Assembly: GCA_037974665.1 (NCBI GenBank)
Contig: CM075768.1
Span: forward strand, 652,501 to 716,500
Source: Ehretia macrophylla
Taxonomy: Eukaryota > Streptophyta > Magnoliopsida > Boraginales > Ehretiaceae
DNA length: 64,000 nucleotides
Reading direction: 5' to 3'
Every line of letters starts with the position of its first letter. The stretch's first letter is position 1. The translations under genes were made by a program, and so were the position numbers. The notes under the pieces are model-generated. The model was not told where the DNA came from. It did no database searches and saw nothing but the letters and a program-made list of their open reading frames with translations. Positions 3,101-34,029 of the stretch are shown here, piece after piece.

Positions 3101-6100
3101 ACCAGTCAATTTCTGCATTGCATCATTCCACTCCAAGCACCGACCATACTCATCCATCATAAAGATTGGAGGAACTAATGCACAAGTGTTCCTAACAATT
3201 CCAACATAATCACCATGTATTTGGGTATATTTGTCCATAATCAACTTTTCCCCAGTAACATCTTGCCCTACAAAGCAAACTCCTATGATATTTAACTTCA
3301 CATCTCGACTACAACAGGCATTAGCGACTAAGATAACTGGACCATCTTCTTCCTGAGGACCATATGTTCTGAGTTTGATCTCAACATTTTTTTCTTCTTC
3401 ACCTGCCATTTTACTTTAAAGCAGATCAAGATAAAGCACAGACCTCCTGAGAATAAATTAACATGCAAATATCTAAATCCAAGAATGCAATAAATATTTT
3501 ATTTGCAGTGTTGACATGGAATTTTCTGAATTCCCAGTAAGCTGTCCAAAATGGAAGAGTAATTACTCGTCTGATACCTCCAGAAATTCAGATAACTGAA
3601 TATGTCTGCAATATCCTACACCACTCTACGTCTAGTTCCTTTCCCTTTTTGTGGATGACACGTAAACCATAAAACATTTCCTTTTGTTGCCTTTACCAAA
3701 CTAATAATGATGAATGAGAAAGAAGCATTTCTCAATACTGAATTTCAATGATCAGAGGTCTCATATAAACAAAACAATGCTAACCAATGAGACAATATAA
3801 TTGTCAATATAGATTTCAAATAAAGATCTTACATATAAAGTCCTTGATTTAAGAAACATGAACAACATTTAATTTAATATACAAAAGCTAAATAAAAAGT
3901 TCCTTAAGAGGATTTTCAACTGGAATCATCAATATCCCACTCAAATGCAAGACAATTTTCTTTGTGACTTTCTATCATTCTTCATCGGTTTGTCCCTCAT
4001 GTCTTCTCCATGGAACATCAACCTCTCTCCCTCTGCCATCCTTGCCTCGCTTCTAAACTGAGGGGCATCCATTTACTCTCCCTCTTTCTCTCTTCCCTTC
4101 CTACACCTCAAAGAGGAGGGGGAAATTTTCTTTTCAAAGACCTTTACCTAATAAACTTTAAGTAATACTAATTCCCTTCAAAGTGATATCTTCCTTTTAG
4201 CATTCACACATTTCATAACTTACCATTCTACTCCAAACATTAAACAAAACATTGTTATTATATTTTTGAGCATATAATATGGCCAGAATCATGAGGTTCG
4301 ATTTCTTTCCAAGACTGGTGATAAGGACGGTCCTCAGACCAGTGACTAGTTAGCTAAATAATAGCATATTATCTTATTGTGACTATATTAGCTAGCAGAT
4401 AGTTTAGACTTGTACAACTGATCAGGTTAGTTAAAAATAACTAACCTGACAGCTAAGCAACAGCTTAGCACTGAGTAAGACTGCAACTATATATACATGT
4501 AACTGTAACAGAAATCAGATTGAGAAATAATACAATTCAGTTTTCAGATATTTTCTCTCTTCTCTCTCTATTTCTTCATGGTATCATAAAGCCATCTTTT
4601 TTTTTCGATCCTCGAGGTCCTCTAATGGCGATCACCACAATTCTCCATTAAACCTCAATTCAAAGCTCCATCAGTAGCTTTCTTCTTCCAATCGAAGCTC
4701 CATTGAAGCTCGATTGTGCAGAAAACATTGAGGATACACTCAATTCTACACACACAAAGCCCTAATTTTCAAGTGCTGTATTTCTCCATTGGAGAACAGC
4801 TCATATCTCCATCAGAACTTCAATTTGCAGCTCAAAAACTGCAATCGAAGCCTCGCAACAACATACTTGAGCTTCACCTCTTCCCTACATCTTTCTAATG
4901 TATTATTTGTTCCTCAAATTTCCACCAAACTACTTTCAGTCTATCAGCTTGCTAAAGATAATAACTGTGCTATTATTTTCACTTCCAAGGAGGTGCAAAT
5001 CTGAGACAATACTACCCACAAACTCCTGTTCAAGGGCCCATGTAACAACGGCCTCTATCCACTCCCTTCTTCAATATCTTCCTTCACTACACCTTCTCCA
5101 AATCAAGTGATAGCACAATCCTGTACTACTCAGCTTCCTACTGCAACTCTGTGGCACTATAGACTGGGGCATCCTTCCAGGAATGCATCTACTATCTTGT
5201 CTTCTATTTTGCATGTTAAATTGAATTACACCTCTGTTGACTGTCATTCCTGTTCAGTTTCTAAATCACATAAACTTAGTTTTTCTACTTCTACTACTAG
5301 CACAAGTGCCCCATTTGAAATCATTCATTCAAATATATGGGGGCCTTCCTCAATACAATCATGTATGCAATATAGATATTAAGTTGTCTATATAGATGAC
5401 TTTTCCAAATATACATGGGTTTATCCATTGAAATTAAAGTTTGAAAATTTCTCCACTTTTCAACATTTCATTGCTATGGTTAAAACTCAGTTTCAAGCCA
5501 ATGTCAAGATCCTAAGGACTGACAATGGAAAGGAGTATATTAACAATCAATTCAGCTCCTATTTCCAATCCTTAGGCATTTTGCATCAAACCTCATGCCC
5601 TCATGCCCCAGAACAAAATGGCAAATCTGAAAGGAAACATAGACACCTAGTTGAGACTGCCATCACCCTCCTACAACAAGCCCATCTACCTACCTAATAT
5701 TGGCTAGAAGCCCTAGCTACTGCCAATTACCTAATTAACAGACTCCCAACACCAACTTTGCACAATCTGTCACCTTTTGAATGCCTTTATTCCACTAAAC
5801 CTGATTACACTACACTCAAGGTCTTTGGATGCCTATGTTATCCATGGCTTAGACCTTACTTTAAGCACAAATTAGAAGCAAGGTCCGAGCCTTGTGTCTT
5901 CCTAGGGTACTGTCCAAACACAAAAGGTTATAAGTGTCTTGACCCTCAAACAGAGAGAATCTATTACTCTAGGCATGTTAGATTTCATGAACACCAATTT
6001 CCTTTCTCAAACTTCCCCCAACAACCTCTAACAGAGTTACTTTTTACCTTTACACCTAATTGTTCAGAAAATCTACCCACTGAGCAACAGCCATCTATTC

Positions 6101-9100: not shown

Positions 9101-11090
9101 CCACATCAAGCAAGGACATGCCAATAGCTTTCTGCACACTCAAACCAGTAAGCTCAGATACTTTACTGTTCCAACCATTGATATTACCAGAGGCATCAAC
9201 AGCAAAAATAGGTATGGAAGCTGTCTCAATGAGGCGAACCATTTCATTAGTCACTACACGTAGTTCATCCATCCTCTGTATACTGCTCTCAACTGTTGGA
9301 ACATTAACAATCATTTTGGAACTATCTATATTATGATCTTGCAAAGATCCTCTCAGTATTAACTGCAGGGAGTGGATCGCATCCATTTCGACATCTTCCC
9401 AAGGTAAACTACGCCTCTTAACTACCTCCAAGAAGGCCTTAAATGATGACCTTGGATGCATTTTCTTTCCGTCATCCTTGTCTCCAGGATCATGCTTTGC
9501 ACCACCCCACTTAATCTCCTTGGCCGCATGGGAACGGAACCAAAAGAGAAATTCCTTAGAAGTTATTCTCACAGCAGCCATTCCACATACTGCATCACCA
9601 AGGATGAAAGCTCCTGGATAGCCAGCTTCCATGAGGCTATCAGTACTTAACCCTGTGCTCCCACTGTGGTATTCGAGAAGCCATTCGACAATGTCCCTGA
9701 TTTGTGCCTTGGTAGGTGTGACTCCAAGCAACCAGCATTTCTTCTGGTAGTAAAGTGCAGCACCGTCACACTTGACAAGATCCATCACATTTGGTGATTG
9801 GGTGACAATTCCTAATGGAGCATTTCTAAGTAGCATGTCACAAAGCACGGTTTGAGTGCGCAAAATATGCTTCTCCCTCATTTGAGCTGCCAATTCCACT
9901 TCCTTATTAATCTGAACACTAAAAACGTGAACCAAGAATTCACAAGCATATCTCAAAGGAAATGGAACAAACCTGGGGCTTGTATGATGACAAACAACTA
10001 AGCCCCATAATTTTCTTCCCTTGTGCTGATTGCTGTCCATCTCATCATCTCCCTCACTAATAATCACAGACATCACCAATGATGCAATGGAACCCATGTT
10101 TTCCATATACTGCGAATGACACCCATGAGGAGCTCTTAGCATGGATCCGGCAAGACTCAATGGCTGAGGCAATCCCTCGTCCTGAACTACTTTAACCGGT
10201 GGGGCCAAGCAATCACATATCATCCTAACCTTATTTTTCATGAAGAGAAATCTTGAAGCTTGGGGTATATCAGTAGCAGGATAATGCACGCCAAAATAAG
10301 GTTCCAGGTCTGGCCTGCGACACTCGGCTATAACTTCCCCATGTTCATCTTCATGAAATTTGTATACCATGACTCGGTCATAACCAGTCAAATCACTAAC
10401 TTCTCTAACTAACACGTCACAAAGCAAAGATATATCCCCACTTGGCAAAGACTGTAGTCTTGAAATGGATTTGGCAGCAAGCTTATATGACTTTAATGCT
10501 CCAGCAGCCGTTACAGGCGTATCAACAGGATTAACAGGCTCCATATCTATCACTAAACCAATATCAATCCGATGCAGAATCGCATAAAAGGGCTTACCAG
10601 AACTTGTACAATGCACCAAAATAGGATTAAACAAACTAACTTCACCAAAGGTGGCTGCTTTCTGCAACGCAGATGCGCCTGATGATCGAAAGAGTGTCCT
10701 CACATCAGTGCCAAATGTCAGAACCTGTCGTTGCTCAATAATTGGCACTGCGTGTGGCGCCAAGTCTAACATCTCAGGTGCATTCTCGCTATAAGCAAGG
10801 ACCTTGAAGCTTTGTTCATCAATAGCAATGACACAACCAAACGGCTGAATAAGACTTCCTCTTTGCATCTTCTGGAGATAAGCAGATACAGTTGAGGAAG
10901 GTACATTACTGGTGGAAATGGACCTGTTAACTGAGGTGGCGTAATCGAATTGTGGTTCACACTCTTCAAATTCAACATGAAGCTTAGCATGAATTGGTGT
11001 CTGACCAACCATTCGTGCACCAGATCGAGCAGAGCTACTTCTTGAACAATTTGTCATTCTGTTATTGTTGGTGGTGGAGTTGGATGACAT
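1..11090 (-). CDS. PHYC: Phytochrome C gene (four exons visible, 3' end cut by window edge)
   Basis: Red/far-red photoreceptor that binds a linear tetrapyrrole and moves between cytosol and nucleus. Exons on the minus strand are 11090-9047, 3402-2586, 489-193 and 114-1 (continues past the edge). All junctions are GT-AG and keep frame: CAAG/GT to CAG/GT, TG/GT to CAG/C, CG/GT to CAG/G. The visible protein is about 1090 residues; Arabidopsis PHYC has 1111, so roughly 20-30 residues are missing. Order: Ser/Asn/Arg-rich N-terminus, PAS, GAF (PATDIPQ near 271-277; chromophore Cys324 in [10 protein letters not shown]), PHY, two PAS domains, then a histidine-kinase-related domain ([11 protein letters not shown]). 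The MSSN start and [15 protein letters not shown] resemble PHYC more than PHYA, PHYB or PHYE as recalled. No break is seen in the visible exons. Odd points: a Copia element in intron 1, a 2.1-kb intron 2, and GLCL where GLGL is usual. PHYC identity is very likely; a lineage-specific paralogue cannot be excluded. Confidence 0.95.
193..489 (-). CDS. PHYC: PHYC exon 3
   Basis: 297 bases between acceptor TTTCAG/CTATATGG and donor TTTCG/GTAATC. Encodes the part of the histidine-kinase-related domain with [16 protein letters not shown], aligning with LYGDNLRLQQILSETL of Arabidopsis PHYC, and ends in IEFR. Intron 3 after it is only 78 bases (192-115). Confidence 0.93.
490..2585 (-). other. PHYC intron 2, no gene recognised
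   Basis: 2.1-kb intron, longer than is usual for this position in phytochrome genes. AT-rich, with no protein similarity recognised on either strand. Around 1040-1110 there is a segment resembling the 'tgtcccacgt' motif common in plant Copia LTRs, possibly a remnant, but no paired ends were found. A short tandem repeat lies at 1128-1190. Confidence 0.75.
1128..1190. repeat. 31-bp tandem duplication in PHYC intron 2
   Basis: Two adjacent copies of a unit beginning 'agatgcaa' and ending 'taacatact', with a few substitutions between them. No function is apparent. Confidence 0.75.
2586..3402 (-). CDS. PHYC: PHYC exon 2 (PAS repeats and start of kinase-related domain)
   Basis: Begins after acceptor GCAG and ends at donor TG/GTACAG, 817 bases. 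It encodes the first PAS core ([20 protein letters not shown]), the second PAS ([38 protein letters not shown]) and the kinase-related helix [11 protein letters not shown], which contains the H-box-like His. The exon ends within the codon for Cys in IEEC-YMDV, matching the exon boundary known from other phytochrome genes. Confidence 0.94.
4319..4578 (+). repeat. 5' LTR of element J
   Basis: 260 bp, TG...CA ends. Contains a TATA-like 'ctatatatac' and a CT-rich 3' end. Paired with 8403-8662. Confidence 0.95.
6146..6510. mobile_element. hAT-type MITE inside element J
   Basis: 365 bp, flanked by a perfect 8-bp duplication TTGCTAGT (6138-6145 and 6511-6518). The ends are imperfect inverted repeats (AGTGTATTAAAAGGC and, reversed, GCAATGTATAAAAAAGC), with GC-rich 'cgcctaggcgcgcctagg' motifs near both ends. 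An 8-bp duplication with a short A/TGTAT-type end is typical of hAT elements. No coding capacity. Confidence 0.88.
7668..7697. repeat. CCCCCA microsatellite
   Basis: Simple repeat of six-base unit CCCCCA inside element J, between the RT and RNase H remains. Five units are visible. Confidence 0.85.
8403..8662 (+). repeat. 3' LTR of element J
   Basis: 260 bp, near-identical to 4319-4578, preceded by the purine tract GAGGGGGGA and followed by the target duplication ACTGG. Confidence 0.95.
9047..11090 (-). CDS. PHYC: PHYC exon 1 (photosensory module and first PAS)
   Basis: Encodes 681 codons plus one base: N-terminal extension, PAS, GAF with Cys324, PHY, and the start of the first regulatory PAS ([16 protein letters not shown]). 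The start is the first ATG of the open frame; the MSSN start matches Arabidopsis PHYC as recalled. The frame runs 12 codons past the donor before stopping, so the exon ends at CAAG/GTACAC, where the protein continues as LQ-G-EEEK into exon 2. One large exon holding the whole photosensory part is typical of plant phytochrome genes. Confidence 0.95.
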
Positions 11091-16284: not shown

Positions 16285-19085
16285 ATAATTCTAACTGCAC
16301 TTGAAACATGTTAAAACGAAGAATGAATAACTAAAGTTACTCAGTGAGGGAGGTGATGCAACAAAGATAATAACATAAATATCACAATAAAACAATCTAA
16401 TAGAACAAATAATCAAACACATTATGAAAGGATACGATTTATCTTCTTGTCTTCGATCTCGAACCACGAACCATGATCTTCAAGCAAGTGCCGGCAAATC
16501 TCTTATTCCTCTAAATGGGGTACTCCAGATGTACCCTGATCCTATGACCCATAATCTCTCGAGGTAGGTTCGTATGCCCCAACGAGGTAAACTATGCCTC
16601 TGGGGTAAGGGAGTATGCCTCAACGAGATAGGGACTGGGAAACCATGGTAGTCGAGGGAGCACGGCAAGCCCAACGTCGCTCGTGTTACTCGACATTACC
16701 ATGCCCGAATAGGTTACGTAATCCCGAATCAAGTTCACGAGAGCCAAGATTTGCAATATCACATAAGAGGAACGACAAAGTAGGCCGCCCTCGCAGTTAG
16801 TAGTAATATAAGTCATTGAACACGAAATAACGATATAAACACTAAAAGGTAAATAACATACTTTTCCACAAACTCTTCAATTAACTTGATTATACCTTAA
16901 ACAAGTATTTAAACACATAACAAAACCTCTACACCCTCGTACAAGTACAAAAGTATCCATTTATCACTTTTCCCCCTTATATAACTATGCAATTATTCTT
17001 CTATATGAAATTCAAGGTCCCAAATCCATAAACCAATCAATCTACATTCCAAAGGAAGCCAAAAGACACCTACCTTGGCCCTGAAAATCCGTTTTGGAGA
17101 CAAAAGCTGGGGAAGGCCTGAGTGGGTTTTAACTACAACTACCCTATCCGGACTACAATTTAATGCAACGAAAGCACCAAAAGTGCTTACATGCCCCATG
17201 GATACCTAATCTAAAGTCCAAATGTGCCCGGATTACATTTCATGAAAACTCCCTTTTGAAAATTTAGCTAATTCGCATTTTAACTCAATTTTGGGCAAAT
17301 TAACTACACATGAGCACTTAACTAGTTTCAATAACATCTAAAGCACTTGTAGGTAGCATCAATTCAATCCAAATAACAACTTAAAGCAGACCCTAGATTT
17401 AGGCACTATTCATTGTCTCTTTCATTTGATTTGTGCATTCAACCATTCTAGTTGTTAACAAGCTTCAAAAGATAGCTCTATCGGTTCTAAAGGTTGTATA
17501 TCAAGCAACAATAACTACTCCATAGCTATAAACAACAATACAAGAAGATCAAATAATTGGCATAAACATAAACATGAAAAATATGCAAGCTCCCTCACCT
17601 TTAGAAAGCCAAGAATCTACTTCAATTGCCCAAATCTCCTTTTATTACCACTCAAAACCTCTACCTAAACACAATAACTTCAAATTAACACATAATCAAA
17701 GTAATCATTCAAATAATCAAATATTCAAGTCATATTCATTTCCTCACACAAACTATACAACTAACAAGTAATATGAGTAATATAAGCAAGATATAACATA
17801 CTCACTTTCTTCTTCATTGCACTTTTATATACAACTCAACTACACATGTAACTAAGTTAAGAAGTTCACCTTAATTTTAGCCATCTAACAAGTATTCCTA
17901 GTCTTTACAAAAAATATAACACAATAAACAAGCTAAAGTTAAGTATAAAGCCTAAAATCTCCATTTTCTCCTCTAAGTTCAATATGCCGAAACTAGTTTT
18001 AGCCAAGGTTTAGTTAACTAAAGTATCTAACTATCCTCAACTACATTTATAGAACCTAAACCAAGCATTAAACTAGTATTTAAGGCTCTAATTGTATTAA
18101 TTCTAAAGTGCGCATACAAATAGGCATAAAAATCGACATTTTCGGAATTCAATAAATTTTAACGTGGGACAGTTTTATCAACCAACGTCACATATCTATC
18201 ATTAGATTAAGGTTTTGAGGAAGATTTAAAGGGCCTAAGTGAATAGTGGCTATTAAACTAACTTTAACTAATTGATCTTGCATTTCAAGCATTGCCAACC
18301 CATTCAAAGCTCTAATCTAGGTTTAATAACTCCTAAATCACATGCATATAGCAACAAATTAAGCTAGAACACAAGGATTTTACTATTCATATTTTTTACT
18401 ATTTATCATTTTCTACTTTTAGCCATCTTCAAAATTTGAGTAAAACACATGCAAGAAACTCTAAAAGTCTACTCTACCATGTCTCTAGACAACATTTTAT
18501 ACATTGGAAGCTTTATATAGGCATTTAACAAAAAAGTCATGAAATCTCTATATCAAGAAATCAATAAAAATAGCACTTTACATGAACCTCTCACCTCAAA
18601 GATGCCAAAAATGGAAGGGATTTACAAGAGAAGCTATTGATTCATGCTAAAATTGCTCCAAAAGCCAAGCCCTAACCTTATTCTCTTTCATGTTTTTTCT
18701 CTACTTCTCTCTCTGTCGATTTTTCTTGTTCTTTTGCTCTTTGTTTTTGTGTTGTCTTATAATATATGTATATAAGTATGTATATGATATAACTAAATGG
18801 GCTAAATCATGGTTGGCTAAAATAAAATGCTATTGGGGCTTAATTAACTTAGTAGACATTAGTTAAAATGCTAAAGACCCTAAAACAACTAAACTATTAC
18901 TATTCACTCGGGGACACTCAACATTTTCTATTTTCTAATTCATACTCGGGACATGCATGAAACATTCTGACAATGAGTGAATATATTATAAATAAATTAT
19001 AATATAGGAAAAATATAATTTTAGGTAAATAAAATAGTTTAAAAATTTACTACGGGCTCGGAGCTATTTATTCACTAATTGAAAT

Positions 19086-19740
19086 CACTACAAAAATTAA
19101 GTTATTTTGTGACAGTCAGTAAACGTCACATTTTCGTCACAAAAAGGCTTTTGTGTCGAAATTGTGACGAAATTTAAGTTGTCGCGAAACATGGCGTGGA
19201 AAAATTAATTTTCGTCACATTTTTGTTGCCCTGTGACGAATTTGCGACGATTTAGAAAGATGAAACTTTTCGCAGCAAATTCGTCTCAATGCGACTAATT
19301 TGCTACGAACTATGATTGTCGGTAAATCGTGGCAATATTTCGTGGTAAAATCGTCACTAGATGTTCGTGGTAAAATCGTGGCCGGATGTTGTCGCAAATG
19401 TTTCATCGCAAATGCGTCCCAAACTATTTTCGTCACAAAACCGTGGCAATTTCCAAATTATGTTTGTCACAAAAGCATGGCTAGATTTCATTTCTTTTGT
19501 CATAAATTTGTGACAATGTTGAAACTGTTATCGTCACAGAATCGTCGCAATTTTCAAATTATGTTCGTCACAAATTTGTGACATGTTGAAACTGTTTTCG
19601 TCACAAAATCGTCGCAATTTTCAAATTATGTTTGTCACAAATTCGTGACAATGTTGAAACTGTTCTCGTCACAACATCGTGACAATTATCAAATTGTTTT
19701 CGTCACAAATTCCTGGCAATTTTCAAATCCACTATTCTTA
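19086..19740. repeat. CACTA left end with subterminal repeats
   Basis: After the CACTA terminus, 'gtcaca' motifs in both orientations recur every 15-40 bases. From about 19410 to 19720 an irregular tandem array (unit about 65 bp) repeats 'cgtcacaaaatcgtcgcaat', then 'ttcaaattatgtt' and 'gacaatgttgaaactgtt'. In this superfamily such arrays are the transposase-associated protein's binding sites. Confidence 0.85.
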
Positions 19741-20000
19741 TATTCCTTGTAATATCATATAGTTTGTCCTGCAAAATTATAAAATAACATTCATAATTGA
19801 ATCTTATTAATTTCTGAAAGCAACCCCATAATTAAATCTCAAATAATTATACAACCTAGACATCCATTCAAATAAACACAAATCTCCACAAAGTAGTTAA
19901 ATATACATAATAGCCACCATTCAACAAAGTTACCTTCTTCAAATATTCATTCTGAAAGAAATACTAAATGTACATCTATCATACCATGACCTTATAGATC

Positions 20001-23000
20001 CTATTGGGCATCACCGTCTTGCTGTTCTGATGGAGACTGAGATTGATCCGGATGCGGTTGGGGTGGATGCGGCAACAATTGGGTCAACTGAGCGATCTGT
20101 TGCTGAAACTTTCTAAATTGCTCGTTTTGTTGTGCAATCAATTCAGCCCTTAAATTTGATGTTGCCCTATTGACGGCTTCTTGCATTTCTTGCTCTGTGA
20201 TTCGATGAGCAACATATGGGACGTCGTGCGCGGATCCTCGTATGGCTTGCGATCCTAAACCATACAATCGTCCTCCTCTAGCTGATCCGCCTACTGCCTG
20301 GTAAAACAATGCATCACGGTCAATAGGCAGTGCAGTCGGATCTCCTTGCGATGACGTTGTGGCCTGCTCGACCAATTCTTTGTACTTGGCCTGCAATTAA
20401 TACGTAATTATTGTTATTTTACTTTAATGTTAATTATTAATCATGGAATAAGTTCAAATAAATATGACATACCATGGTTTCTTCAGCCTTAGGGTCAGAG
20501 TATGGACCATCGACGCCTTTCCTATGAACTTTTTCAAACACATCTGCTCTCGTCACTGGTCTATCTGATTTTGATTCCTATAGAAGCATTTATCAAATAA
20601 CAATTCTTGAATTAAATATTTAATTATCATATAGAAATACAATTTAAATAATTAGTTTAACACTTACCAATCTTCTCTTGACGTCGTGAAATGGGAGACA
20701 ACCAGCATAATGTGGAGACGACTTACTCAATCTGTTCTTTTTGTTTGTCTCTGACCTCTTCCTCCATACATCTGTGTTCCAGTGCTGATATAGTCCCTCC
20801 CATACACTATCACTCAACCAATTGGGCTTAATCTTTTCATTTTTTTCCATTTCACGACCCCTATAGAAGAGGCCCCGTAACCGAGTATTCACGTTTTTAA
20901 AAAATAACCGGCGAATGACTGGTTCATCAAAAGGGTACCACTTGTACAATCTCTACAGTCATATATTAAGTATTAGTAATACAACTTATATATTGACACG
21001 GTATATGAAACTAAAATATATATATGAAATTAATTTCATATACTTTAGTACCTGAAAAGAGATGAACCATCTCTCTTTAACATCAACTGGAATCGCACCC
21101 CATCTCGTCCAAGGCTCGTTGAACCCGGCATTTAATATATTGGTGACCTCTCGTGCCGCCCCGACCAGTATCCATCTGCAATTAGTAAAAGATACAAAAG
21201 TATACTAATAATTGTAATGAAAAAAATAAACAAAATAATGTACATATTATATAAAATTGTACTTAATGTTCTCATACCCGCTTGAATATATCGTCATGTG
21301 TGTACGTCTATCAATCTGCCATACAGTATACGCCTCCAAAGATGGGAATCCATATTCTTGCCAAACCTCTAAATGTATTCCAGCAGCCCGTCTGTCACGC
21401 CCCAACACGACCCCTCCTACGATCAGTCGACACGCAACGGAATTTCGGCAGTATAACGACAATAAATAGGACACCGAGGTTCCAAACCAACCTCATTAAA
21501 CATCATACATCCAGCAACTCCTCAAATCAAATTTACAACATACAGCACAATCATATTATACAATAAACCATCCTCGTTATACGCCTCCGTTCCAACATAA
21601 CATACAATACCTCAACCTTATCATACATTTCAAAAATAAGTTGAGACACATCTACAGCTTAACCATAGACAAAAGAAAGCCAATAAGTCAACATCATTCG
21701 GATCATCATCTTTTAAACATCTATTACAATAAAAACCATAAAGCATATAAAAGTCTATTAAGCTAATGTACATGACATTTAACAACATAGAATCATGGAT
21801 AAGACTCAGGAACATATGACTCGTCCACGTAAAGCACATTTTCCACATTCTCCTCTTCAGGAGGCACGTACCCGTAATCCGGCTCTGCAACACCTGTAAG
21901 CATGTATTAATAGAGAGTGAGCTTATATACATAAGCCCAGTGAGGATCCGATAGATCTCGAACAAGGTCTACTAAACTCCTTGGAATAATCCTTTGAGTC
22001 AGTAAACACACAATAACACAAATACTACTATCATCACATAGCTATATAACCAATCAATAAAGGATACTCTATTTGCTGTAGCTCCAAACGCCATCACGAT
22101 CTCAACCGTTCTTCTTATAACTCCCCATTACTCACGCACCCGAAGCACCTCACTAGCCCCTCCCTCCAGGACACCCCCCTCATGCGAGCTGGGGGTAGCC
22201 TATGGCAGTCATGCCGTTATCAACCCGACAGCCCGACGCTGCCCGAGAGGTGGCACACACATACCAAGACTCCATAATCATCATCAATCATCAATCAATC
22301 AATCAATTGGGAGATCAGCAACGAAAGTGCCCGATTCCCGAATTCAATAATAATCAATCAATCAATTAACTTAGTTAGATGACAAAGTAGGCCATCTAAC
22401 CGGACATGCATAATATACACAATTAAACCCTAAATTACTCATCAACAACTCACCATTCATCACTCGAACACTACCTAACCATCTAAAGGCATCGTTCAAG
22501 AAATTAAAGAATGACAACCTAAACTTCTAAAATTCATAACTTACAATCTAATAATCCAAACATTGCCAAATCAGTTCCTATCACTCACCCATTCAACCTA
22601 CTACATTAGCCCTCTCGGAAATCTACCATAACACCTCCAAATCATGCCCAATAACCCTAAAACCCTAGGATGTCATGGCTGGATTTTCCGGATTTTCACA
22701 CGAACAATGTAATCGAAAATTCGGCATTATAACAGCGCTAACACGTAATTATCAAGTATTTAGAAATCGACGGCAATCGATTTCGATCAACACAACTCAT
22801 TTAATTCAACTTTGAACATTTTAATCAAAATTAAATACCCGGAAAATAAAAATTATGCTACATCCGACAGAAATTCGTAGTATTAGTATATAACGATCCC
22901 TAGCATGCAAGGAGCAATAATCTATCATCAGATTTCAATTCTAACGGTTAAATTTTCATTTATGAGCAAAAGTATAAAAATGACATTTTGAGATCTAGAA

Positions 23001-24182
23001 TTTTTCTCTCACCTTTGATGCGATATAAGCCTAGGAATGCGTGCTATGCATGCCCAACAAGAAGAATCCAAGTCGGTGCGAAGTTCTACGGACAAAAACT
23101 AGGTTTTTCTTTGAAAAATTGATTGAAAAGCTTGAGTTTTTCTCTTTCTTTTTCTCTCCTCTTTCTCTAGGCCTTGTGTGTGTTTGTGGAGTGTGTTTTG
23201 TGTTGTGTGAGTGTGTGTTGATGACAAGAAGTATTTAAAAGCTTGGTGAAATAAAAAAATGCAAAGTCAAAGTAATATTTAGTCCTTTAAATCATTTTCT
23301 TGTCTTTTAAATGCATTTTAACTATCTTCTTGCTCAAAACAAAAATGCAACTCTTAAGATAGCTCAAGTGGATTATTTTTAGGTGACAAGAAGTTTTACA
23401 ATCCAACAATTTCCCCCGAGTCGGCTTAAAACTCGATTTTCGCAAAAGTCGGTGTAAAAACCCTAATAAATTCTTAAGCCGATTTTAAAACCGTTTTCAT
23501 CAAACACAGGTCTATTAAAGTCCGTGGACTAGGTCTAGAAGGGTTAAAAAGACCAGTTTCAAAATTTTAGCGGACGTGTTTTGAAAACACTATTCATTGT
23601 AAATCGACGATAAAATTTCTGACTCCGTTTTTTATGAAAATTTCATGAATGCACATTTAGTACGTATTAGGAGTATTGACATCAAAATTATAACTTTCTA
23701 GGTCCTATAGCACATAAACAGATCATATGCACGCAAAATGAGGTATAGCACGTAAAACGAGATAAGCAGGAAAGTGGGGTTTCACACCGTCGCTGGGCAG
23801 CAACTGAAGACTCTGGCTGGTTAGTAGCTAGTATGGAACGGGCCATATGCGAGTCTTCTGTGTCAACGTGCAAACCATCTAAGTGTTGTGGTCAGCCCGT
23901 GGATGAAGTAGTTGCCGGAGATTGATTATTGGTGGGTAAAGTGGATGGAGTAGTTGTAGGAGATTGATCATTTGTGGGTCTAGCAATCTGTGAGATCAAC
24001 CCTGGAGTACTCAATGGTATTGAAGTGGATGAAGTAGATGTTCGCCCAGCATCGGAGGATGAGTGGGATGTTTGTGCACCACTTGAACGTGCAATAGAGC
24101 GCTGCAACATCCCAGGAGGCACATATTTTCTAGCCGTACCTTTACCTTTATTTTTATTTGAAGACATGTCTGTTTTGGACAA
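20001..24182 (-). pseudogene. CACTA Transposase_24 / tnpA-like gene, interrupted
   Basis: Multi-exon minus-strand gene. The first exon (from 24182, or from the in-frame ATG near 24167) encodes a Lys-rich then Ser/Thr/Pro-rich start (KGKGTARKYVPPGM), with an in-frame TGA near 23892. Coding resumes to the site of solo LTR E1 and continues from 21392 (EVWQEYGFPSLEAYTVWQ). Later exons: about 21180-21055 (WILVGAAREVTNILNAGFNE), 20955-20644 (PNWLSDSVWEGLYQHW, KKNRLSKSSPHYAGC), 20577-20472 (RPVTRADVFEKVHRK) and 20396-20001 (Gln-rich coiled-coil-like C-terminus ending DGDAQ). The middle exons match the plant Transposase_24 (Ptta/En/Spm) pattern. Its role in the family is binding subterminal repeats or aiding transposition. 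Exon borders are approximate. Confidence 0.82.
21393..23786 (-). mobile_element. Solo LTR E1 inside the CACTA tnpA-like gene
   Basis: 2394 bp, plus-strand ends TGTCACGCCCC...GGGGTTTCACA, flanked by perfect 5-bp repeats CCGTC (21388-21392 and 23787-23791). Same family as E2 (37712-40325). The orientation is inferred from the shared CCTCACTGAG box, which lies on the minus strand. No internal sequence or coding part. Confidence 0.92.
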
Positions 24183-24300
24183 AATCTAACTATCATTAAA
24201 GAATGTAGATCTACACATGCAATTTGAATACATTACAATCATATTAAATGTTTATAAGTAGTATAAATACATTGAAATAATCCATTAAATGTAATTAGCA

Positions 24301-27300
24301 CTAATCATTATCATTATCTTCATCGTCATCTCTATTTTCATTTTCATATTCATCTTCATCTTCGTCTTCGTCTTCGTCTTCGTCTTCGTCTTCGTTTTCA
24401 TCTTCGTATTCATCTTCACCTTCACTTTCACCTTCAACTTGTTGTTGTTGATATTGTAACTCATTCAATTCCTCTTGCAATAGCTCAATATTTTCAACTG
24501 ATTCATGAACACGTCGAGGCATCTCTTCATCATCTAGTAGTATTACATGCACATCCATTTTATCTGATTGAAAAGGTATTTCCTCTTCTATTTCATACTC
24601 CTTTCGGGGCACATCATAGTAATTCATCGGTTTTATTTTGCATACAACCCACCAGTCTGCGCGATCTCTTTTAGCACCAGGGTATTTGCAGTAATAGATT
24701 TGATGTGCTTGTTCTGCTAACACAAAAGGTTCATATTTTGAAAATCCCCTATTCACATTGACCTTGACAATTTGATACTTAGGATGTTCCTTAACACCTC
24801 TGCCCTTTTGCATATCATACCATTTGCACTTAAAAAGAACAACTCTTGTATGTTTCTGTGTCGGATTATGGTACTCCAATTCAACAATGTCCTCCAACAT
24901 TCCATAGTAGTCACCGTACTCGGTATTACCATCATATGTCCCCTTGACGGACACTCCAATATTCATTATGGACTTGGAAGACCCGTATTCCAAGGTGTCA
25001 AATCAGTATCCATTAACCAAATAGCTTGACCATGTACGCACTCTCTTACTTGGCCACATAGAAAGACATTTTACCCGATCATTAATATCATTACTGCACG
25101 CGAACTGTAAAACAAAGAATTAACCGGAAGCACAAGAGTTGAGTGCTAACTTCAATACAAATAACCATTAATTAGATGTGTACTTACATGGTCGTATAAC
25201 CATTTTGGAAAAAGATTGTCAATCTTATTCTGAAGTTGTGTCACAGTTAATGGTGGATAATTTCAGAAAAGATATTCCTCAAACATCCTGTGAGCAATAT
25301 ATAGGGTTCATATTAGAGATGTATTGGTGTACAAAAAATGTACAAAATGTCATCACCTTACCAGATATAAGGGTGAACCTCTTGGCAATTCATTAGTACA
25401 TATAGGTGTGCAGCATATAACTCTTGATCATCCAGTATTCGGTACTTTACTTTCCCTATTGGACAACCCGGGTAAGTAAATAAAGCTAAACATCCATCAA
25501 GGTAGTCTACATCGCTATATTGGTCATTTCGACCAATATTTCTTGTTTTAGTTCTCACATGAGGTTCGAAGTAATATGAACAAAAGGTTGATGTTTCCAA
25601 GAAAAGATAGGCTTCACATACAGAACCCTCAACCCTAGCTTTATTCTTTACTCCCCTCTTCAAACGATGTAAGAACCTGCATGAGTATTGATATGGACAT
25701 TTAAGTATTGTTTAATGCAAGTGTTTGCATATAAATTTGGAAAAAAGATATAATTACCTTTCAAAAGGATACATCCATCGATATTGTACAGGACCACCGC
25801 ATATTGCTTCATATACCAAGTGCACTGGCAAATGCTCCATCGAATCGAAGAAGACAGGGGGTAATATCTTTTCCAGGTTGCAAAGAGTCACGACAACATT
25901 TTCTTGCATCCTTGCTAGATCTTCTCTATGAAGAGATGTACAACATATATCTTTGAAGAACAAACTTAGTTTCGTAAAAGCTTCCTGAACATGTTTAAGA
26001 AATACCTCACGTAAAGCTATAGGGAGCAATCTCTCCATAAAGACATGACAATCATGACTCTTCATATGCGACAACTTCAGATCTTTCATGTCAACATATC
26101 TTCCTAAATTGGATGCATATCCATCGGGGAGTCGTAAGTCCTTAACCCAATCTAGAATTACTTTTCTCTCGGCCACAGGCAATGTGTACACACCCATATT
26201 CAGTTTATAACCACCACCCGGTTTGCCCTGAACACATAGTTCAGGACGGTCACAAAAGTTAGAAACATCCATTCTCACTTTCAGATTATCTTTTGTCTTA
26301 CCCTTGACATTCATCACAGTGTTGAAAATATTATCAAATACATTCTTCTCAATATGCATCACATCTAAATTATGACGTACAAGATGTGAACGCCAATAAG
26401 GCAAATCCCAAAAAATACTTCTTTTCGTCCAATTATGCTCTTTCCCAAAGCCAGCGATCTTGCTTGTTGACAATTCATTTGCTGTAGGGAAGTCTTTTAC
26501 ACGTTCCCAAATTTGTTCACCATCTAATATGGGAGGATGATCAGAACTTTCAACTCTACCCTTAACAAAATTCTTCTTGTCTCGCCGTAACAAACTACTT
26601 GGTCGTAAGAACTCACGATGACAATCAAAGAAGCAATTTTTTCTACCAGCGGTCAATTGGAAAGCCTTTGAATGTTCCATGCAATATGGACACGACAACT
26701 TCCCATGTGTACTCCAACCAGATAACATACCATATGCCGGAAAGTCATTTATTGTCCACAATAGAGCTGCCCTCAATTGAAAATTTGTTTATGTTGACAC
26801 ATCATAACAACGTGCCCCTACTTCCCATAAATCTTTCAATTCTTCGATTAGGGGTTCTAAGTATATATCAATGTTCTTACCGAGATTTTTCGGGCTAGGA
26901 ATAAGAAGAGTTAAGAACATGACGGGGGTCTTCATACACATCCATGGTGGCAAATTGTATGGTGTCATAATCACTGGCCAACAAGAATAAGGTTTAGAAC
27001 TTGAGTTGTATGGATTAAACCCATCTGAACACAGCCCAAGACGAACATTTCTTGGCTCGACAGCAAAACTAGGATATACTCTATCAAAGTGTTTCCATGC
27101 CTCAGCGTCAGACGGGTAACATATCTTCCCATCTTCAACTTGGTGCTTCTTATGTCATTGCATATGTTCAGCTGTAACCTTTGACATGTATAGCCTTTGC
27201 AACCTCAGTGTTAGCAGAAAATATCGCAACTTCTTTTGAGCTATGAGCTTACCCCGTCTTGATGTCTTGTAACGTGGCTCATAGCAACGTGGACAAGAGT

Positions 27301-28015
27301 CCATGTCACTTCTATCGTTGTAAAACAATATGCATCCATTTTTGCAAACGTCTATCTTTTTATATCCCAATCCTAAAGGCCTCATTTCCTGTTTGAAGTT
27401 GTAAAATTTTTCAGGTAAATTATGAGTTTTTGGCAACGTTTCCCTTACTGTCTCGATCATTCTATTGAAGCATTGTTCACTCATATTTTCTTCACACTTG
27501 ATATTCATGAAACGAGACACAACAGACAAATGAGTTAGAGCTTCACAACCATCCCATAATGGTTTATCAGCATCCTTCAAGAGATTAAAAAATTGTGATA
27601 CTTCTGTGTTAGGTGGTTCATGTGGTTGATCGTGATCCATAACAAACTCCGAACGAGCAACATCAAATACCATTGTCCTATAGGAATTTCTTTCATCAAA
27701 CCCAGGGTAATTATAATTATGAGTAAAGTTCTCTTGAGATGTATTACCATAATTATGAATTTGTTCCCCATGTAAAGTCCATTCGTAATAATGCGGCATG
27801 AAACCCTGCTGATAAATATGGACCTTTACATCGTCAGGATTGAAGAACTTACGATTTCTGCATTTAGCACATGGACATCTTATCTTATCACCATTCATGT
27901 AACGTTGCTGACTACTTACAAATGCAACAAACTCATGTACACCTCTAATGAACGTATTACTAAGCTGCCTGTCGGGTTCCAAACGGTGGTTCATCCATTC
28001 ACGATCGATATCCAT
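24301..28015 (-). pseudogene. CACTA tnpD transposase (tnp2 family), inactivated
   Basis: The catalytic transposase gene of the CACTA. It starts MDIDREWM at 28015; the frame is open further upstream, but this start fits the family. Order: transposase-associated domain with a Cys motif (RCPCAKCRN) near 27850; tnp2 core (PRCYEPRYKTSRRGK near 27270, LRAALLWTINDFPAYG near 26770, LDVMHIEKNVFDNI near 26350); DUF4218-like block (SLHREDLARMQENVVVTLC near 25910); second exon about 25676-25362 (VEGSVCEAYLF, AAHLYVL); DUF4216-like exon near 24990-24640 (VVLFKCKWYDMQKGRG); then an acidic Glu/Asp tail to the stop at 24301. Two in-frame stops, TGA at 27155-27157 and TAA at 26789-26791, fall in the otherwise continuous first exon, so no full transposase is made. 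The exon 1 donor is near 25757 (GAAAG/GTAATT). Confidence 0.9.
24361..24395. repeat. TTCGTC hexanucleotide microsatellite coding an acidic tail
   Basis: Near-perfect (TTCGTC)n on plus, which reads as alternating Glu and Asp codons in the tnpD frame. Surrounding triplets continue the acidic run to the stop codon. Confidence 0.85.
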
Positions 28016-31000
28016 TTGGTTAAGTACTGTATTATAGCAAACACTTAGAATATGGATTGCATATTTAAGAGTATGAATTACACTAATTTCGAAAGACAAA
28101 AATTAATGGTCTGAATTGTAATAAATATAAATCCTAAACTCATGGCCCAATAGGTTAAAGGGCCTTACTACAGTTGTTGGGGCTAATTAATTTGTAGGTC
28201 CCAACTAAAGGTATTGGGCCCTATTAGAGTTGTTGGGCAAAATTCGGACTACTTAACATGAACTGATAAAGGAACATAAAAACTATAGATAGAACATTAC
28301 ACACAATATAATTTCAACAAATCTGATCAAGTTGGTTATAGCTCCAAACCAACTGCCAAATGACCAGGCTCATTTCTCTAAGCAAAAAAATAGTGAAAGA
28401 AAATGAAAGGAAAAGATATAACATGAACTGCTAAAGGAACAGAAAAACAAGTAAGAGGTAAGAAAGAGAAAATAACAAAAAGAAAAAGACAAGTGTACAA
28501 AAGGAAAATGGATATCTTCTACTAAGCTATGAGAAAAAGACAAGTGTACAAAGTTGGAAGCCATTATTCTGCTTCATGGGATCTTTTCAAGAAAGATGAG
28601 AAAATTTTGTACTTGATAAGACGTACTAGAACTCTTATGACCTCTTCTAAATTATATGTCTTCTTAGACTATCTTGATTTCTTGTTTGCCTTTCCCAATA
28701 TCTTGTCTGGATTTTCAGTGTCGTTGAACTGGCAGTCTTATGACAGTAGATGTATAACACATGTAAGGGAAGCAATTTAAAACTATTGAAAAGGAAACAA
28801 AGGGATCTATTTTGTTTTTTATTAAGTTCCTTTAATGGGTCATGGTTGAATTAATGTAATGAATTGTGGAATTGCTTTAATTAGGTAGGTAAATTTGTGT
28901 GTTTCTTTAAGCAAGGATGACAGTGGAGCATTTCTTTGTTATTTATTCCAATATTACTCTTGTAGAAATCACTTTTTACATCACTGGGCAAAAATTAATA
29001 CTCTTACTGCTCCCTTCTCTTCTCAGGCTTCAGAATTCTTAAGCAATAAATGTCTTAACTAAGTGTGGCAGTTGTTCTTGAACCTTTGGTGCATAAGTTT
29101 TTCTTCAATATAGGTAAGTTACAAAAATTATACATTCATTCACTTTATTTGAGCTTTTGAATAAAGATAAACCTGAGATGAGAAATGAGTTTTGCTACAA
29201 AAGATGAATTATTGTCTTCTATATCTCAGATTGTAAGCAAATTTAACACTTAAAACCAAGTTAACATACTCCTCAGACCCTGTTCTACTTTTCAAACTTT
29301 TGTTTTTGATCCCTGCTCTCATTAAGCATTTTTTATTATTGCAATGTCTTTTGATTCTAAGATATTGACGAAGAACTCATGAATAGCAAGATGCAAATAG
29401 ATGCTTGTGCTCATCTTTTAGTGTAGGAAAGTTTTTACTGAAGGGATGTAGATTTTAATAACAATCTTAAGATGTAGGTGTTTAAAGTAGTGAAAGGTAA
29501 AACATGGTGAGGAATTGTGTCTGAATCGGGTTATAAAACATGGTGAGGAATTATGACTGAATGGGCATTGCAAAATTTTCCCCATTTATAGCGGAGTAAG
29601 GCGTCTATAAATTGAGCCTTGCTGCTTTTGTATGTAGTGTGTGTGGAGTCAAGAGTAATAGCTAGGTGGTGTAAGAGAGTGATAGCTAAGTCATGAGCAA
29701 TTAGTTGAGTAGTGCACCTGTGTCTTTGTCTTTGGTAGAGTCTCGCTACTTGTATCAAAGTGTCGTGTTTTTGCATGTATATTAATATAAGAGCTTTACA
29801 ATATATATAAGGTCTCTTTGGATATTACAAAGGCAAAAATGAATTTTGGTCTTTTCAAAATGAGAAGATGTGCAATGAATTTGGGAGAAGTGACCTATCA
29901 CAATAATAACGATTTGAAGTATTCCTATGCTAATTCTTTTTCACCCAAGCAATAGAATTTGTTGGCTTCAAATAGAAGCCGAAAAATAAAACAATTATGC
30001 AATAGAAAGATAAAGAAATTAAGGGAAAAATAGTGTTAGTTCATTCAGCTTGAATAAAGATGTTAGTTTTTGCTTCTTTTTTTTTTTTTAAATAGTGTTA
30101 ATCACTTTATATCAATTTAAAAATAGTGTTAAACCCTATAAAATAATCAAATAATATCTGCATCTACCACACAAATATTTAATTTTACAGTTGAAATTTG
30201 AATAATCCTGCAACAAAAAACAACATATCGAAATCAATTGAAGAACCCACCAAAACGGTAGACAAAAAGCATATATCTTTATAGTTTTGCACAGGTAAAT
30301 GAATAAATGAGAAGATCCCAAAAAACTATATAGCCCATATGCGTTATTGAATAGACATCATCAACCATAAGCAAGCCACCAATAATAAAATCTGAGAAAC
30401 CCAAAGAACCACCTCACAAAAATCTAGTTGTTAATCTAGCAGTATAGGAATCCAACAATAACAAGTACATCTACTTTGGATACACTGGAGCACTCATAAC
30501 ATAGGCCATGATGTGTTAAGATGTAGAAGTAATGTCGAGTTTCCTTAATAACGTCAGATAGTAATGTTGAGTCTTGCGGGCTCAATATTGCAAAACATTA
30601 ATTTAGGTCAGTAATGAGTTCTCAAATCATTCTAAAGCAATAAGAAACAAGTAGAAAATTAATTTGAATCATTCCAATTGAGTGAAAATGAACATAAGTT
30701 AGGTTCAAGAGTTGCATATTTTGTTGTTACAGTTATGTATTTACACGAACTGATAAATGAAAATTAATAGGATCTCCATAGAGTACTCATTCACATCTTC
30801 CATTGTATAAATAAGATGCATGTAAGGAAGCAAGCCTCAGTCCAGTCTGTAGTTCTAAATGAAGACCTCGCTGTTAAATAAGTATATAAGAGCAATCTGT
30901 CTCTTTCTCAAGATCCAGTCACTCATTTCTTTTCTTAGGTAAATGTTCCTGTTACTCCAATTACTTTAAAGCATGCCTGACTGCACCACATTGCGCCTAG

Positions 31001-31665
31001 ACCCATTAACAATTGGTGTCCTATATTGCCAAAAGACCAAAGTTTTGAAGACAAAATGCACTGCTTGTTGTTCTCATTTCATAACAAAAGTACCATCTTT
31101 TCATTTGCTTAGGCCAAGAAATAACCAAAGAAAACTATGAGCTTCGTGCTTGTTCAAAGAAGCAACTGAACAAGCTAGCTTGAAGTAATTATATTGCAAG
31201 GAAGTGGCTAACCATAACAGGATCTCCTTTAGTAGAATTAACCATAGCAGCTATACTGGAGATAGAATCCACCCTATTGTCTTGTAATGTACCAATAAGT
31301 AACATTGAGTTTAATGCTATTGGGGAAGAGTGCGCTAAGAAGGGAAAAGAAAAGATTTCTCTTACTAGGGATGAAAAGAGAAATTAACAGTAGAGATACG
31401 CAAAAGGAGTTTGGATTCGTCAATAAACAATACAGAAATAGCTCAAATGCATAGATAAATAGAATGCTACTGTTCTCTTATGCATTGTTGAGATTATCAT
31501 AAGCCAAAAGTGGTTTCTGATGCTTCTTTTACCCTCCCATAGCCCATTATTACACACAGAGTATGTACACCATCTAGGACACAACATGTGTTTTGGTAAT
31601 CGCATGACACAGGCTTATATTTACTTTTGACTTAAAAGGACAAGCATCAACGAACCAATATGGAC

Positions 31666-31840
31666 CTGCTGAGCATTGATACCTTTAGCTTTATTTGACA
31701 GCCACAATTTTAGAATTAATAAGTCTATAAGACAACATTTGGCAAGGAATCTCTGCTGAGCATTGATAACTTCAGCTTTATTTGACAGCCACAATTTCAG
31801 AATTAATAAGTCGATAAGACAACATTTGGCAAGGAATCTC
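31666..31840. repeat. 87-bp tandem duplication inside the CACTA
   Basis: Two adjacent units starting 'ctgctgagcattgat' at 31666 and 31753, differing at only a few positions, which suggests a fairly recent duplication. Confidence 0.9.
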
Positions 31841-31910
31841 TGCGCTATATTGATCAAGGTTTCTATCGTCTTTTCTCTAAGATCTGTTAGATGCATGCCT
31901 CAATTGAAAT

Positions 31911-31975
31911 CAGAAGTAACATTTGGCAACTAAAGTCCATAAATCAGAAGCTACATTTGGCAACTAAAGTCCAAA
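31911..31975. repeat. 34-bp tandem duplication inside the CACTA
   Basis: Two units starting 'cagaag.' followed by 'acatttggcaactaaagtcc', at 31911 and 31945. They share the phrase 'acatttggca' with the 87-bp repeat just upstream. Confidence 0.85.
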
Positions 31976-32296
31976 AGAAAAACCAAGGCAGTACCCACCA
32001 GAATGTTTAATGCACCAAAATCATATAATTTAATAAACTAAGCTTGTGCAGGTTATTTAAATAACACATACCAGAGTGGAACAAGCGGGACGCACATAAC
32101 TAGGAGGAGCGGTGTGTGGAAAGAAACTTTTGATATTAGAAAACAAACAATTGGTGTGTATAACATCAACAACAATAAAACATAAAAATATATTAAATGG
32201 TATTAGTTAAATGGCTTCTTGCTGTGAAAAGAATTGCAACAAATTTGTTATCCTGTTCAGCAGGAACACATATGCAAACAACCCAATCCAACTATC

Positions 32297-32543
32297 CTCC
32301 GTGATAACATTCAAGGCATCATGAAGCCAGCCATCAGGCGTCTTGCTCGTAGAGGTGGTATGAAGCGTATCTCCCGTCTTATCTACGAAGAAACTCTATG
32401 GTGTGCTCTAGATCTTTTTGGAAAACGTCATCCATGATGCTGTTACCTACACTAAGCACGCAAGGAGGAAGACTGTGACTGCCATGGATGTCGTCTATTC
32501 TCTGAAGAGGCAGAGAAGGACTCTCTATGATTTTGGAGGTTAA
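32297..32543 (+). pseudogene. Histone H4 gene fragment captured by the CACTA
   Basis: Reads as histone H4 from Leu22 to the stop after Gly102: [26 protein letters not shown], then, after a frame change, [25 protein letters not shown] and FGG-stop at 32541-32543. Residues 1-21 are missing or unrecognisable. One extra base at the Arg55 codon shifts the frame, and the old Lys59 codon is TAG, so no H4 can be made. Relative to the near-invariant plant protein it shows T30M, V43M, G48R, R67H, E74K, A89S, G94R and G99D. It lies on the opposite strand to the transposase genes, near the right end of the CACTA. About 100 bp after the stop may be captured H4 3' UTR. This is a clear gene-capture event; the parent gene is not in the window. 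Confidence 0.96.
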
Positions 32544-32934
32544 ATTGTGAAGCTGATGAGTTTATGTGGTTTGATTAGTGTTAGTAATCGTAGATCTAAG
32601 GTTGTTTCTCTGTTTTTGTGGGTTGTAATTTAACCTCCAAATCCATAAAGAAGTCGCTGCTGTTGTGTGTGTGTGATAAAAAATTAAGTGTCTATCTCAA
32701 AAAGCTTTCTCTCTTGCTGGTTGGAGAAAAAAGAAAAAATACCTTTTACAAGTTCCAAATGTGGTGGTGCCAGGCGGCGGTAGTGGGTGGTGCGGTGGTG
32801 CAAGGTGGCGGAGGTGCAAGGTAGTGGTCGTGGTAGTGTGTATGTGTGTGGGCGAGTAGTGGCTGTCAAAAATTGTATGAAAAAGCTAGGTTAAATGGTT
32901 CCCTTTTAGCAATATAAAGTTTTTTAATTAAATA
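32544..32934. other. Sequence between H4 fragment and CACTA right end
   Basis: First about 100 bp may be H4 3' UTR. After that, 32750-32870 is a GGT/GGC-rich stretch (ggtggtgc, ggcggcggtag) unlike the AT-rich surroundings. No gene recognised. It could be a second captured fragment or a low-complexity array. Confidence 0.45.
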
Positions 32935-33374
32935 TAAAAGTCGTCACAAAATTGTAACAAACCCACGCAATTAGTCATATTTTCGTCACAATAAAGAAGT
33001 CGTCACCAAAATGTAGCAAATAAAAAAGCATTTCGTCACCTGTTCGTCATAATATTCGCGTTAAATTTGCGACAAAATATTTATTCCCACGGCTAAATTA
33101 ATTTCATCACAAAATCATAGCATATTGCCACAAACTTGTGACGAAAAATCTAATTTTTAGAGTCGTCACATATTCGTCACCGAAATTTGCCCATCGTGGC
33201 CAAATTGTCGCAAGCTATGACGAATTTGCAACGTATTGTATAATTCGTCACAGTTTCGTCTCAGTTTTCATGAAATCTGAGGGCCAAAAAGTTTCGTAGC
33301 AATTTCGTCCCAATTTGTGACGATTTTAGTTTTGTCATAAAATTTCGTCACAAATCACCTTCTTTTTTGTAGTG
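32935..33374. repeat. CACTA right end with subterminal repeats
   Basis: Dense 'cgtcac', 'ttgtgacg' and 'gcgacaa' motifs up to the terminal TGTAGTG. They mirror the left end in content but are not an exact inverted copy, apart from the terminal dozen bases. Confidence 0.85.
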
Positions 33375-33673
33375 AATTTATGAAAGTTTAGCAATTAATT
33401 GCAAAGATATAATTTCAAATAAATATAGTTATAATATAATTAACTCAAATTAATTAATTAAACACATTTTGCACATTTCCAAAAATAAAAGAAACTATGT
33501 AAAGAAATGTGTAATACTAACTAATTAAAATTACCTAATCATGCACCTTTATTTAAAATAAACACATAGACATGTACAATTAAATATTAATCACTACATG
33601 AAAGGTTTGGGTTGTTACAGAACCATTTTCTTATACCTTAAATATTAAGGTTTGCTTCCCAACATAAAAGAAA

Positions 33674-34029
33674 GGGTAATTACCTATTTAGTCATGTATC
33701 TTTATCATTTGTCTTAACTCAATTCTTATCTTTTAAAATATATCATTTTAGTCTAATATCTTTGTCATTATGGTCCATGTTAGTCATCCACCATTTTTTT
33801 GTCTAAAAATCTAATGAAATAAATAAGAGACTAAAATGGTACATTTTGAAAGATAATGACTAGGTTGGGACAAATGATAAATATAAGTGACAAAAATAAT
33901 ACATTTTGAAAGATAAGGACTAAGTTGGGACAAATGATAAAGATACAGGACTAAAAGTATACATTTTAAAAGATAATGACTAAGTTGAGATAAATGGTAA
34001 AGATACAGGACTAAATATGTAATTTACCC
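33674..34029. mobile_element. MITE 1, Mutator-like, 356 bp
   Basis: Inverted ends GGGTAATTACCTATTTAGTC and, reversed, GGGTAAATTACATATTTAGTC-like. Flanked by a perfect 9-bp duplication TAAAAGAAA (33665-33673 and 34030-34038). A 9-bp duplication is the mark of Mutator-type transposition. The interior repeats 'acattttgaaagataa.gactaagttgggacaaatgataaa' three times on the right arm. No coding capacity. Confidence 0.9.

Follow-up and report, generated by a model that had tools for sequence, protein, structure and literature searches.

Histone H4 Fragment in a CACTA Element of Ehretia macrophylla

The presence of a piece of a histone H4 gene inside a CACTA transposon of Ehretia macrophylla raises the question of how it came to be there and whether it serves any purpose. 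The piece lies on the plus strand of the window, i.e., the 64,000-nt stretch C5:652501-716500 of the host assembly, and coordinates given below without a contig name are positions in this window. It is highly probable that a CACTA element captured a mosaic of ZFPL1-like, villin, and H4 gene fragments by template switching and was subsequently amplified, and that the H4 part is now functionless and decaying.

Direct reading of 32297-32543 showed codons for H4 residues 22-102 followed by the stop. The H4 frame 0 shifts by +1 at Arg55, the next frame ends with TAA at 32541-32543, and a TAG is present at Lys59. Comparison with host H4 over residues 22-102 revealed eight missense changes, namely, T30M, V43M, G48R, R67H, E74K, A89S, G94R, and G99D. 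In a DNA search run on the host genome (1.58 Gb in 20 contigs) with 32297-32640 as the query, a host H4 gene matched query bases 1-323 at 90% with E = 3.9e-118, which rules out a chance resemblance to H4. The complete 103-residue frame of a functional H4 gene is absent from the window, as the N-terminal tail is missing and the frameshift and stop interrupt the remainder. These observations are in agreement with an earlier note on this DNA, which had reported the same residues, strand, frame change, stop codon, and number of missense changes. The coding part was placed correctly at 32297-32543 in that note, but the full H4-derived stretch is longer (about 32295-32646), comprising the coding part, a 3' untranslated region (UTR), and a short inverted tail.

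The enclosing element carries the terminal inverted repeats (TIRs) of the CACTA superfamily, with ends CACTACAAAAA/TTTTTGTAGTG at 19086 and 33374. It is flanked by the target-site duplication (TSD) AAT/AAT, three bases being the length that defines CACTA elements. Subterminal repeats were found as arrays at 19324-19728 and as related motifs at 32.9-33.3 kb. The element is of the tnp2 type, as PF02992 (Transposase_21), PF13960 (DUF4218), PF13952 (DUF4216), and PF13963 (Transpos_assoc) scored above the cut-off in three minus-strand open reading frames (ORFs), the PF02992 match covering just positions 120-212 of 213. An Rfam scan of the window at gathering thresholds found no family.

Both ends were delimited by genome comparison. 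Among the left-end candidates scored (40 of 1,514), 33 of 37 non-window matches start at query 184-189, where 187 corresponds to 19086, and the rest at 166, 176, 182, and 201. With 40 of 655 right-end candidates scored, the matches in the seven closest non-window copies stop at most 7 bases from 33374, and the C18 match is in two pieces. The joined flanks (387 bases) matched at 84-97% in all 40 places scored out of 1,266 candidates, 32 of them full-length. Hence, the element was inserted in a host repeat, the other copies of which represent empty sites.

The transposase region (23787-28559) is retained at 95-97% in the H4-bearing C6, C8, and C17 copies, all of which are without 21393-23787, and 382 bases of the window (29234-29615) are absent from five copies. 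Minus these two stretches, the window element measures ∼11.5 kb, and the C6, C8, C17, and C20 copies measure 11.0-11.4 kb end to end; the C9 copy spans 5.8 kb between its ends. The nested insertion has a related copy at C19:21583498-21585886 (90%) and is presumably a solo long terminal repeat, judging from its general features. The earlier proposal that 19086 and 33374 are the ends of one CACTA element, with the H4 piece opposite in strand to the transposase genes, was thus borne out by the end matches, the TSD, the empty sites, and the location of the transposase domains on the minus strand. Of the 14.3 kb it assigned to this element, however, 2.4 kb belongs to the nested insertion.

Copies of the H4-Bearing Element and Host H4 Genes

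The DNA search with 32297-32640 yielded 20 matches (19 of 19 first-look candidates scored), and a protein search for H4 yielded 29 (30 of 30 candidates scored). Taken together, these represent nine intact H4 genes, one pseudogene, and ten element copies. The intact genes, located on C6, C17, and C18, are 100% identical over 103 residues, and the H4-like pseudogene at C18:23881030 (67%, two TGA codons) was detected in the protein search only.

Besides the window, the H4 piece resides in nine further elements on eight contigs, with junctions in common. Seven of these non-window copies carry the query at 90-96% over bases 1-344 (2-344 in C20). Eight copies, the window included, span the H4 query and extend to the right element end; the remaining two are the C15 copy, which is older and broken, and C17:58.0 Mb, where a 3' part lies. 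The left end was located in five non-window copies and was not located for the C5:13.5-Mb, C18, and C15 copies and the C17:58.0-Mb piece. The junction of a ZFPL1-like exon with H4 and a deletion between two AGATCTG repeats of the donor 3'UTR are common to the copies. The Lys20 codon AAG of H4 reads ATG in eight of the nine copies spanning the left junction, the window being without it and having a private 9-base loss there, and the inverted H4 tail is kept in nine of the ten copies (lost in C15). As these junction features are shared and derived, they point to one capture before the amplification. C15 is without the +1 shift that the eight younger copies have in common. The TAG at Lys59 occurs in six copies (window, C5b, C9, C8, C6, and C17) but not in C18, C20, or C15. 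For eight of nine copies, the C17:54859918 gene is the one nearest to the coding part.

The genome check suggested in the earlier note, a search for CACTA relatives with the same H4 piece in the same place, succeeded in nine further elements. Neither of the outcomes it named as contrary, an H4 piece outside the CACTA ends or ends from different elements, came out. Its view that H4 arrived with or before CACTA amplification and now decays is supported by the ten copies, their common junctions, and the spread of changes over codon positions described below.

The copy at C5:13.506 Mb (L002/L022) showed mixed affinities. Its H4 piece differs by 5.3% from the window vs. 6.5% from the C8/C9/C6/C17 group, and its 31000-32290 region by 0.7-1.1% from that group vs. 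2.6% from the window. This pattern suggests conversion or recombination between elements. The left end of the window element (19086-21392) has its best match (96%) in an element at C19:47432376, in which no H4 match was found, and it is present at 89-95% in the five H4-bearing copies listed. Judging from such similarities, elements may be mosaics.

Composite Block and Origin of the H4 Piece

The H4 piece is not the lone cargo. The capture claimed in the earlier note stands, but the acquired block also holds ZFPL1-like and villin fragments (Table 1). Its limits were set by comparison with 14 H4-less relatives over stretches of ∼3.7 kb with matches of at least 60 bases; none of the 14 showed a match within 30326-32638. 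Six of them (L030-L035) match 30130/30133-30325 and resume at 32639-32661 to the end, with ∼1.3 kb of other sequence in between, and the other eight match the right end alone within the stretch compared. The block part 30326-32292 is low copy, with 22 matches (16 of 16 candidates scored). Segments 30769-30868 and 31744-32292 match a gene at C13:21.911 Mb, with exons reading TYSEWVIDGEYDWPPKCC... and VIHTNCLLSHIKSFPPHTAPPGYVCPACSTPV, which we take to be plant ZFPL1. Pfam gave no match for two short pieces of this gene and a sub-threshold RING match alone for the joined exons; hence, the presumed name ZFPL1 rests on a conserved motif. The villin identity of 30870-31668 and of the C13:82.890 Mb gene is backed by a solved-structure match (E = 1e-18). 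Both fragments lie on the minus strand, like the transposase, and H4 lies on the plus strand.

At the right junction, the inverted H4 tail of L029 (C17:58.0 Mb) agrees with the C17:54859918 gene, read in antisense, at 24 of 25 bases. The tail meets the element sequence at an 8-nt microhomology, where the H4-less relative L033 has AAAACCAT and the window AAATCCAT. Such a tail, joined at microhomology, points to a fold-back template switch. It is proposed that the CACTA element acquired, near its right end and at the DNA level, a mosaic of ZFPL1-like, villin, and H4 fragments, most likely by template switching during gap or break repair. The H4 donor would be a gene of the C17:54.8-Mb cluster, of which the C-terminal 80% and the 3'UTR were taken. 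To give the observed anatomy of the junction, the polymerase would have copied H4 in the sense direction into the 3'UTR, folded back on the antisense of the H4 end, and then re-entered the element at the 8-nt microhomology. The composite element transposed to give the ten copies found. The H4 coding part, probably without function, is decaying, and in the more diverged copies its mutations are mostly C-to-T.

A different route is offered by the Arabidopsis Pack-CACTA model, in which chromosomal DNA between two neighboring CACTA insertions is re-mobilized as one element; fusion of neighboring insertions is the published model for these Pack-TYPE elements (PMC8903248, PMC13317346). The low copy number (22 matches) and internal position of the block would fit such an origin. 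However, the donor-like loci lie apart, at C13:21.9 Mb, C13:82.9 Mb, and C17:54.8 Mb, the villin fragment interrupts the ZFPL1-like fragment, and the fold-back at the H4 end resembles a replication-type scar. The order of the fragments is not obtainable from one event, though several could give it. An origin from adjacent insertions is therefore considered unlikely, and the two processes are not mutually exclusive. Insertion of a retrocopy of H4 mRNA would also account for a coding sequence with its 3'UTR and a truncated 5' side, as in 5'-truncated retrocopies. Against it, no poly(A) tract was seen by eye at the ends, where an inverted H4 tail is found instead, and the neighboring ZFPL1-like fragment retains intron sequence, which indicates that the block arose at the DNA level. 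A retrocopy is thus extremely improbable, and capture by template switching remains the preferred explanation.

Decay and Age of the Captured H4 Sequence

Variable sites at the first, second, and third positions of H4 codons numbered 22/20/31 in nine element copies, as compared with 15/1/75 in the nine H4 genes, the tenth copy, which keeps the last codons only, being left out. At least one stop in the H4-gene frame was found in seven of nine copies. The missense changes, frameshift, and stops, together with changes spread over codon positions, show that the H4 piece is decaying. Private changes of the C>T/G>A type accounted for 15 of 22 in the window, 39 of 53 in C20, 55 of 94 in C18, and 25 of 52 in the five closest copies together, in an alignment of eight of the ten copies (2,800 gap-free of 3,799 columns). 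In the same alignment, the window differs by 3.2-3.5% from the five closest copies, 4.6% from C20, and 6.2% from C18. At substitution rates of 0.7-1.3e-8 per site and year, divergence times would be about 1-2.5 million years (My) for the nearest copies and 2-5 My for the farthest. In many copy pairs, the divergence of the H4 part is about double that of 31000-32290. A faster clock or hypermutation of H4 in the element is not claimed, as the right end (32660-33374) also exceeds 31000-32290 in older pairs.

Several observations weigh against capture by template switching followed by amplification and decay. The exact pre-capture element was not found, the AAAACCAT stretch occurring at the re-entry point only in L033 of the six H4-less relatives printed, and these relatives constitute a sample, the scoring having covered 40 of 655 right-end candidates. 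A further weak point is the shortness of the inverted tail. The coding part of C15 is marginally nearer to C17:54822586 (12.0%), another gene of the same cluster, than to C17:54859918 (12.4%). The TSD, though perfect in three of six elements checked (window AAT, C17 GTA, C20 TTT), differs at one of its three bases in C8 and in C9 and is absent in C6, which also has a changed base at its left end. Crude ratios resembling dN/dS (non-synonymous to synonymous change), calculated from the same inferred ancestor, were 0.32-0.96 for the copies vs. 0.06-0.15 for four C17 cluster genes; the copy values are not all near 1, and the ancestor is uncertain.

Possible Functions of the H4 Piece

A function of the piece, whether as a source of antisense RNA or small interfering RNA (siRNA) or as a truncated H4, is unlikely on present sequence evidence. 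Antisense or siRNA effects on H4 genes, as suggested in the earlier note, are conceivable, and an effect on the real genes would be striking if true. Should the transposase transcript begin at the right end, its leader would run through H4 in antisense, and the element could deliver antisense H4 RNA or siRNAs from the ten copies acting on those genes. In line with this, the transposase, ZFPL1-like, and villin sequences are on the minus strand and H4 is on the plus strand on the 5' side of the transposase ORFs. Exact 21-mers common with at least one of the nine H4 genes numbered 40-71 of 311 per copy in nine copies (47 of 311 in the window). However, the window 21-mers reach only four of the nine H4 genes, no copy tested reaches more than six of nine, and the decaying copies show no sign of maintenance; such delivery is thus very doubtful.

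The captured piece may alternatively have once encoded, or the C15 copy may still encode, a tail-less H4 (Met for Lys20) that enters nucleosomes. The in-frame ATG at Lys20, found in all but one of the copies spanning the left junction, would provide a start, and C15 is open from this ATG through the natural stop, a frame of 97 aa that includes a 14-aa tandem repeat; its best solved-structure match is H4. The Pfam core histone model scored 16.3 bits for C15 as compared with 21.2 for the corresponding stretch of true H4, and neither score reaches the 26.4 cut-off. On the other hand, C15 has accumulated 14 non-synonymous vs. 9 synonymous changes from the inferred ancestor, and a neutral simulation gave P(>=9 synonymous) = 0.20. 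A stop-free ORF persisted in 65% of simulations with 23 substitutions, in which substitutions only and no indels were simulated. Most C15 changes replace residues that are invariant among the nine H4 genes, the 14-residue duplication probably disturbs the fold, and the right TIR of this copy has decayed. By these measures, the C15 ORF shows no signs of selection, and a nucleosomal role is hardly to be expected. It is equally improbable that a tail-less H4 (C15, with its 14-residue insertion) or an antisense leader RNA would alter chromatin and hence the element's own silencing. The view of a functionless, decaying fragment is therefore retained.

Feature Organization of the Window

The features of the element are listed in Table 1. 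The C18 and C20 copies lack 28540-30123, and 28546-30124, a second donor-like segment, could be either a further or later acquisition or a segment lost from these two. Parts of it match short stretches over 31 kb at C9:22.83-22.86 Mb, like exons of a gene or a retrocopy. Just beyond the right CACTA end, tandem 60-base repeats with inverted arms occupy 33678-34024. Elsewhere in the window, a phytochrome gene lies on the minus strand at 2576-11090, with a 693-aa exon (PAS, GAF, PHY) at 9009-11090; by eye, 2576-3409 resembles a C-terminal phytochrome exon, and a copia-like reverse-transcriptase ORF is placed between the phytochrome exons at 7167-7619.

Table 1. Coordinates of the CACTA element, its genes, and the acquired block in the window.
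Feature	Position	Strand	Basis
CACTA element, TIRs CACTACAAAAA, subterminal repeats at both ends; TIR arms 19082-19113/33347-33378	19086..33374	- (strand of transposase genes)	end matches, TSD
TSD AAT, left	19083..19085		direct reading
TSD AAT, right	33375..33377		direct reading, empty sites
Nested 2,395-base insertion, TG...CA ends, second copy of 5-base duplication CCGTC included	21393..23787		absent from C6, C8, C17 H4-bearing copies
ORF with DUF4216	24301..24993	-	Pfam
tnp2 transposase piece (PF02992 C-terminal part + DUF4218)	25754..26776	-	Pfam
Transposase-associated ORF (PF13963)	27155..28099	-	Pfam
Segment 96% alike to C6:18606783-18608617 (two pieces)	28546..30124		genome match
Composite acquired block	30326..32646		absence from 14/14 H4-less relatives compared
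ZFPL1-like (presumed name) gene fragment, part 1	30769..30868	-	donor-like locus C13:21911717-21911816
Villin gene fragment	30870..31668	-	donor-like locus C13:82889703-82890690
ZFPL1-like gene fragment, part 2, exon + intron sequence, ends at H4 junction	31744..32292	-	C13:21911192-21911715
Histone H4 codons 21 (part) to 102 + stop; +1 shift Arg55, TAG Lys59	32295..32543	+	direct reading, DNA and protein searches
H4 3'UTR as in C17:54859918 gene, deletion between its two AGATCTG repeats	32544..32626	+	copy comparison
Inverted copy of H4 last codons + stop; joins element at AAAACCAT (L029, H4-less L033), AAATCCAT in window	32627..32646	-	copy comparison

Comparison With Known Systems and Significance

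Host gene fragments are also carried within DNA transposons by Pack-MULEs. These belong to another superfamily, whereas the E. macrophylla element has CACTA ends and a TSD of 3 bases. Pack-MULE capture is named in PMC1947982, which describes soybean Tgm-Express1, a 5.7-kb CACTA element with five host gene fragments. Like Tgm-Express1, the present element encloses exon and intron sequence in fragments of several unrelated host genes; the E. macrophylla element differs by its transposase-related genes, H4 fragment, and ten H4-bearing copies. As in the Pack-CACTA elements of PMC8903248, CACTA TIRs and a TSD bound captured host coding DNA (here H4, ZFPL1-like, and villin) that was multiplied by transposition. 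In contrast to those non-autonomous elements without transposase, the E. macrophylla element has tnp2-like genes, and its H4 junction has the look of template switching, not of a fusion between neighboring insertions. Capture of a histone gene by CACTA was found in none of the titles and abstract openings listed in the open-license literature.

Gene-fragment capture by CACTA elements is documented. The window case is a real and well-resolved instance of capture, amplification, and decay in a CACTA family, a process already known. The order of events becomes readable from the donor-like loci, the relatives without H4, copies that differ in age, and the inverted-tail/microhomology junction. The case also carries a warning for annotation: next to the nine intact H4 genes, this genome has ten H4-like loci that are cargo of transposons.
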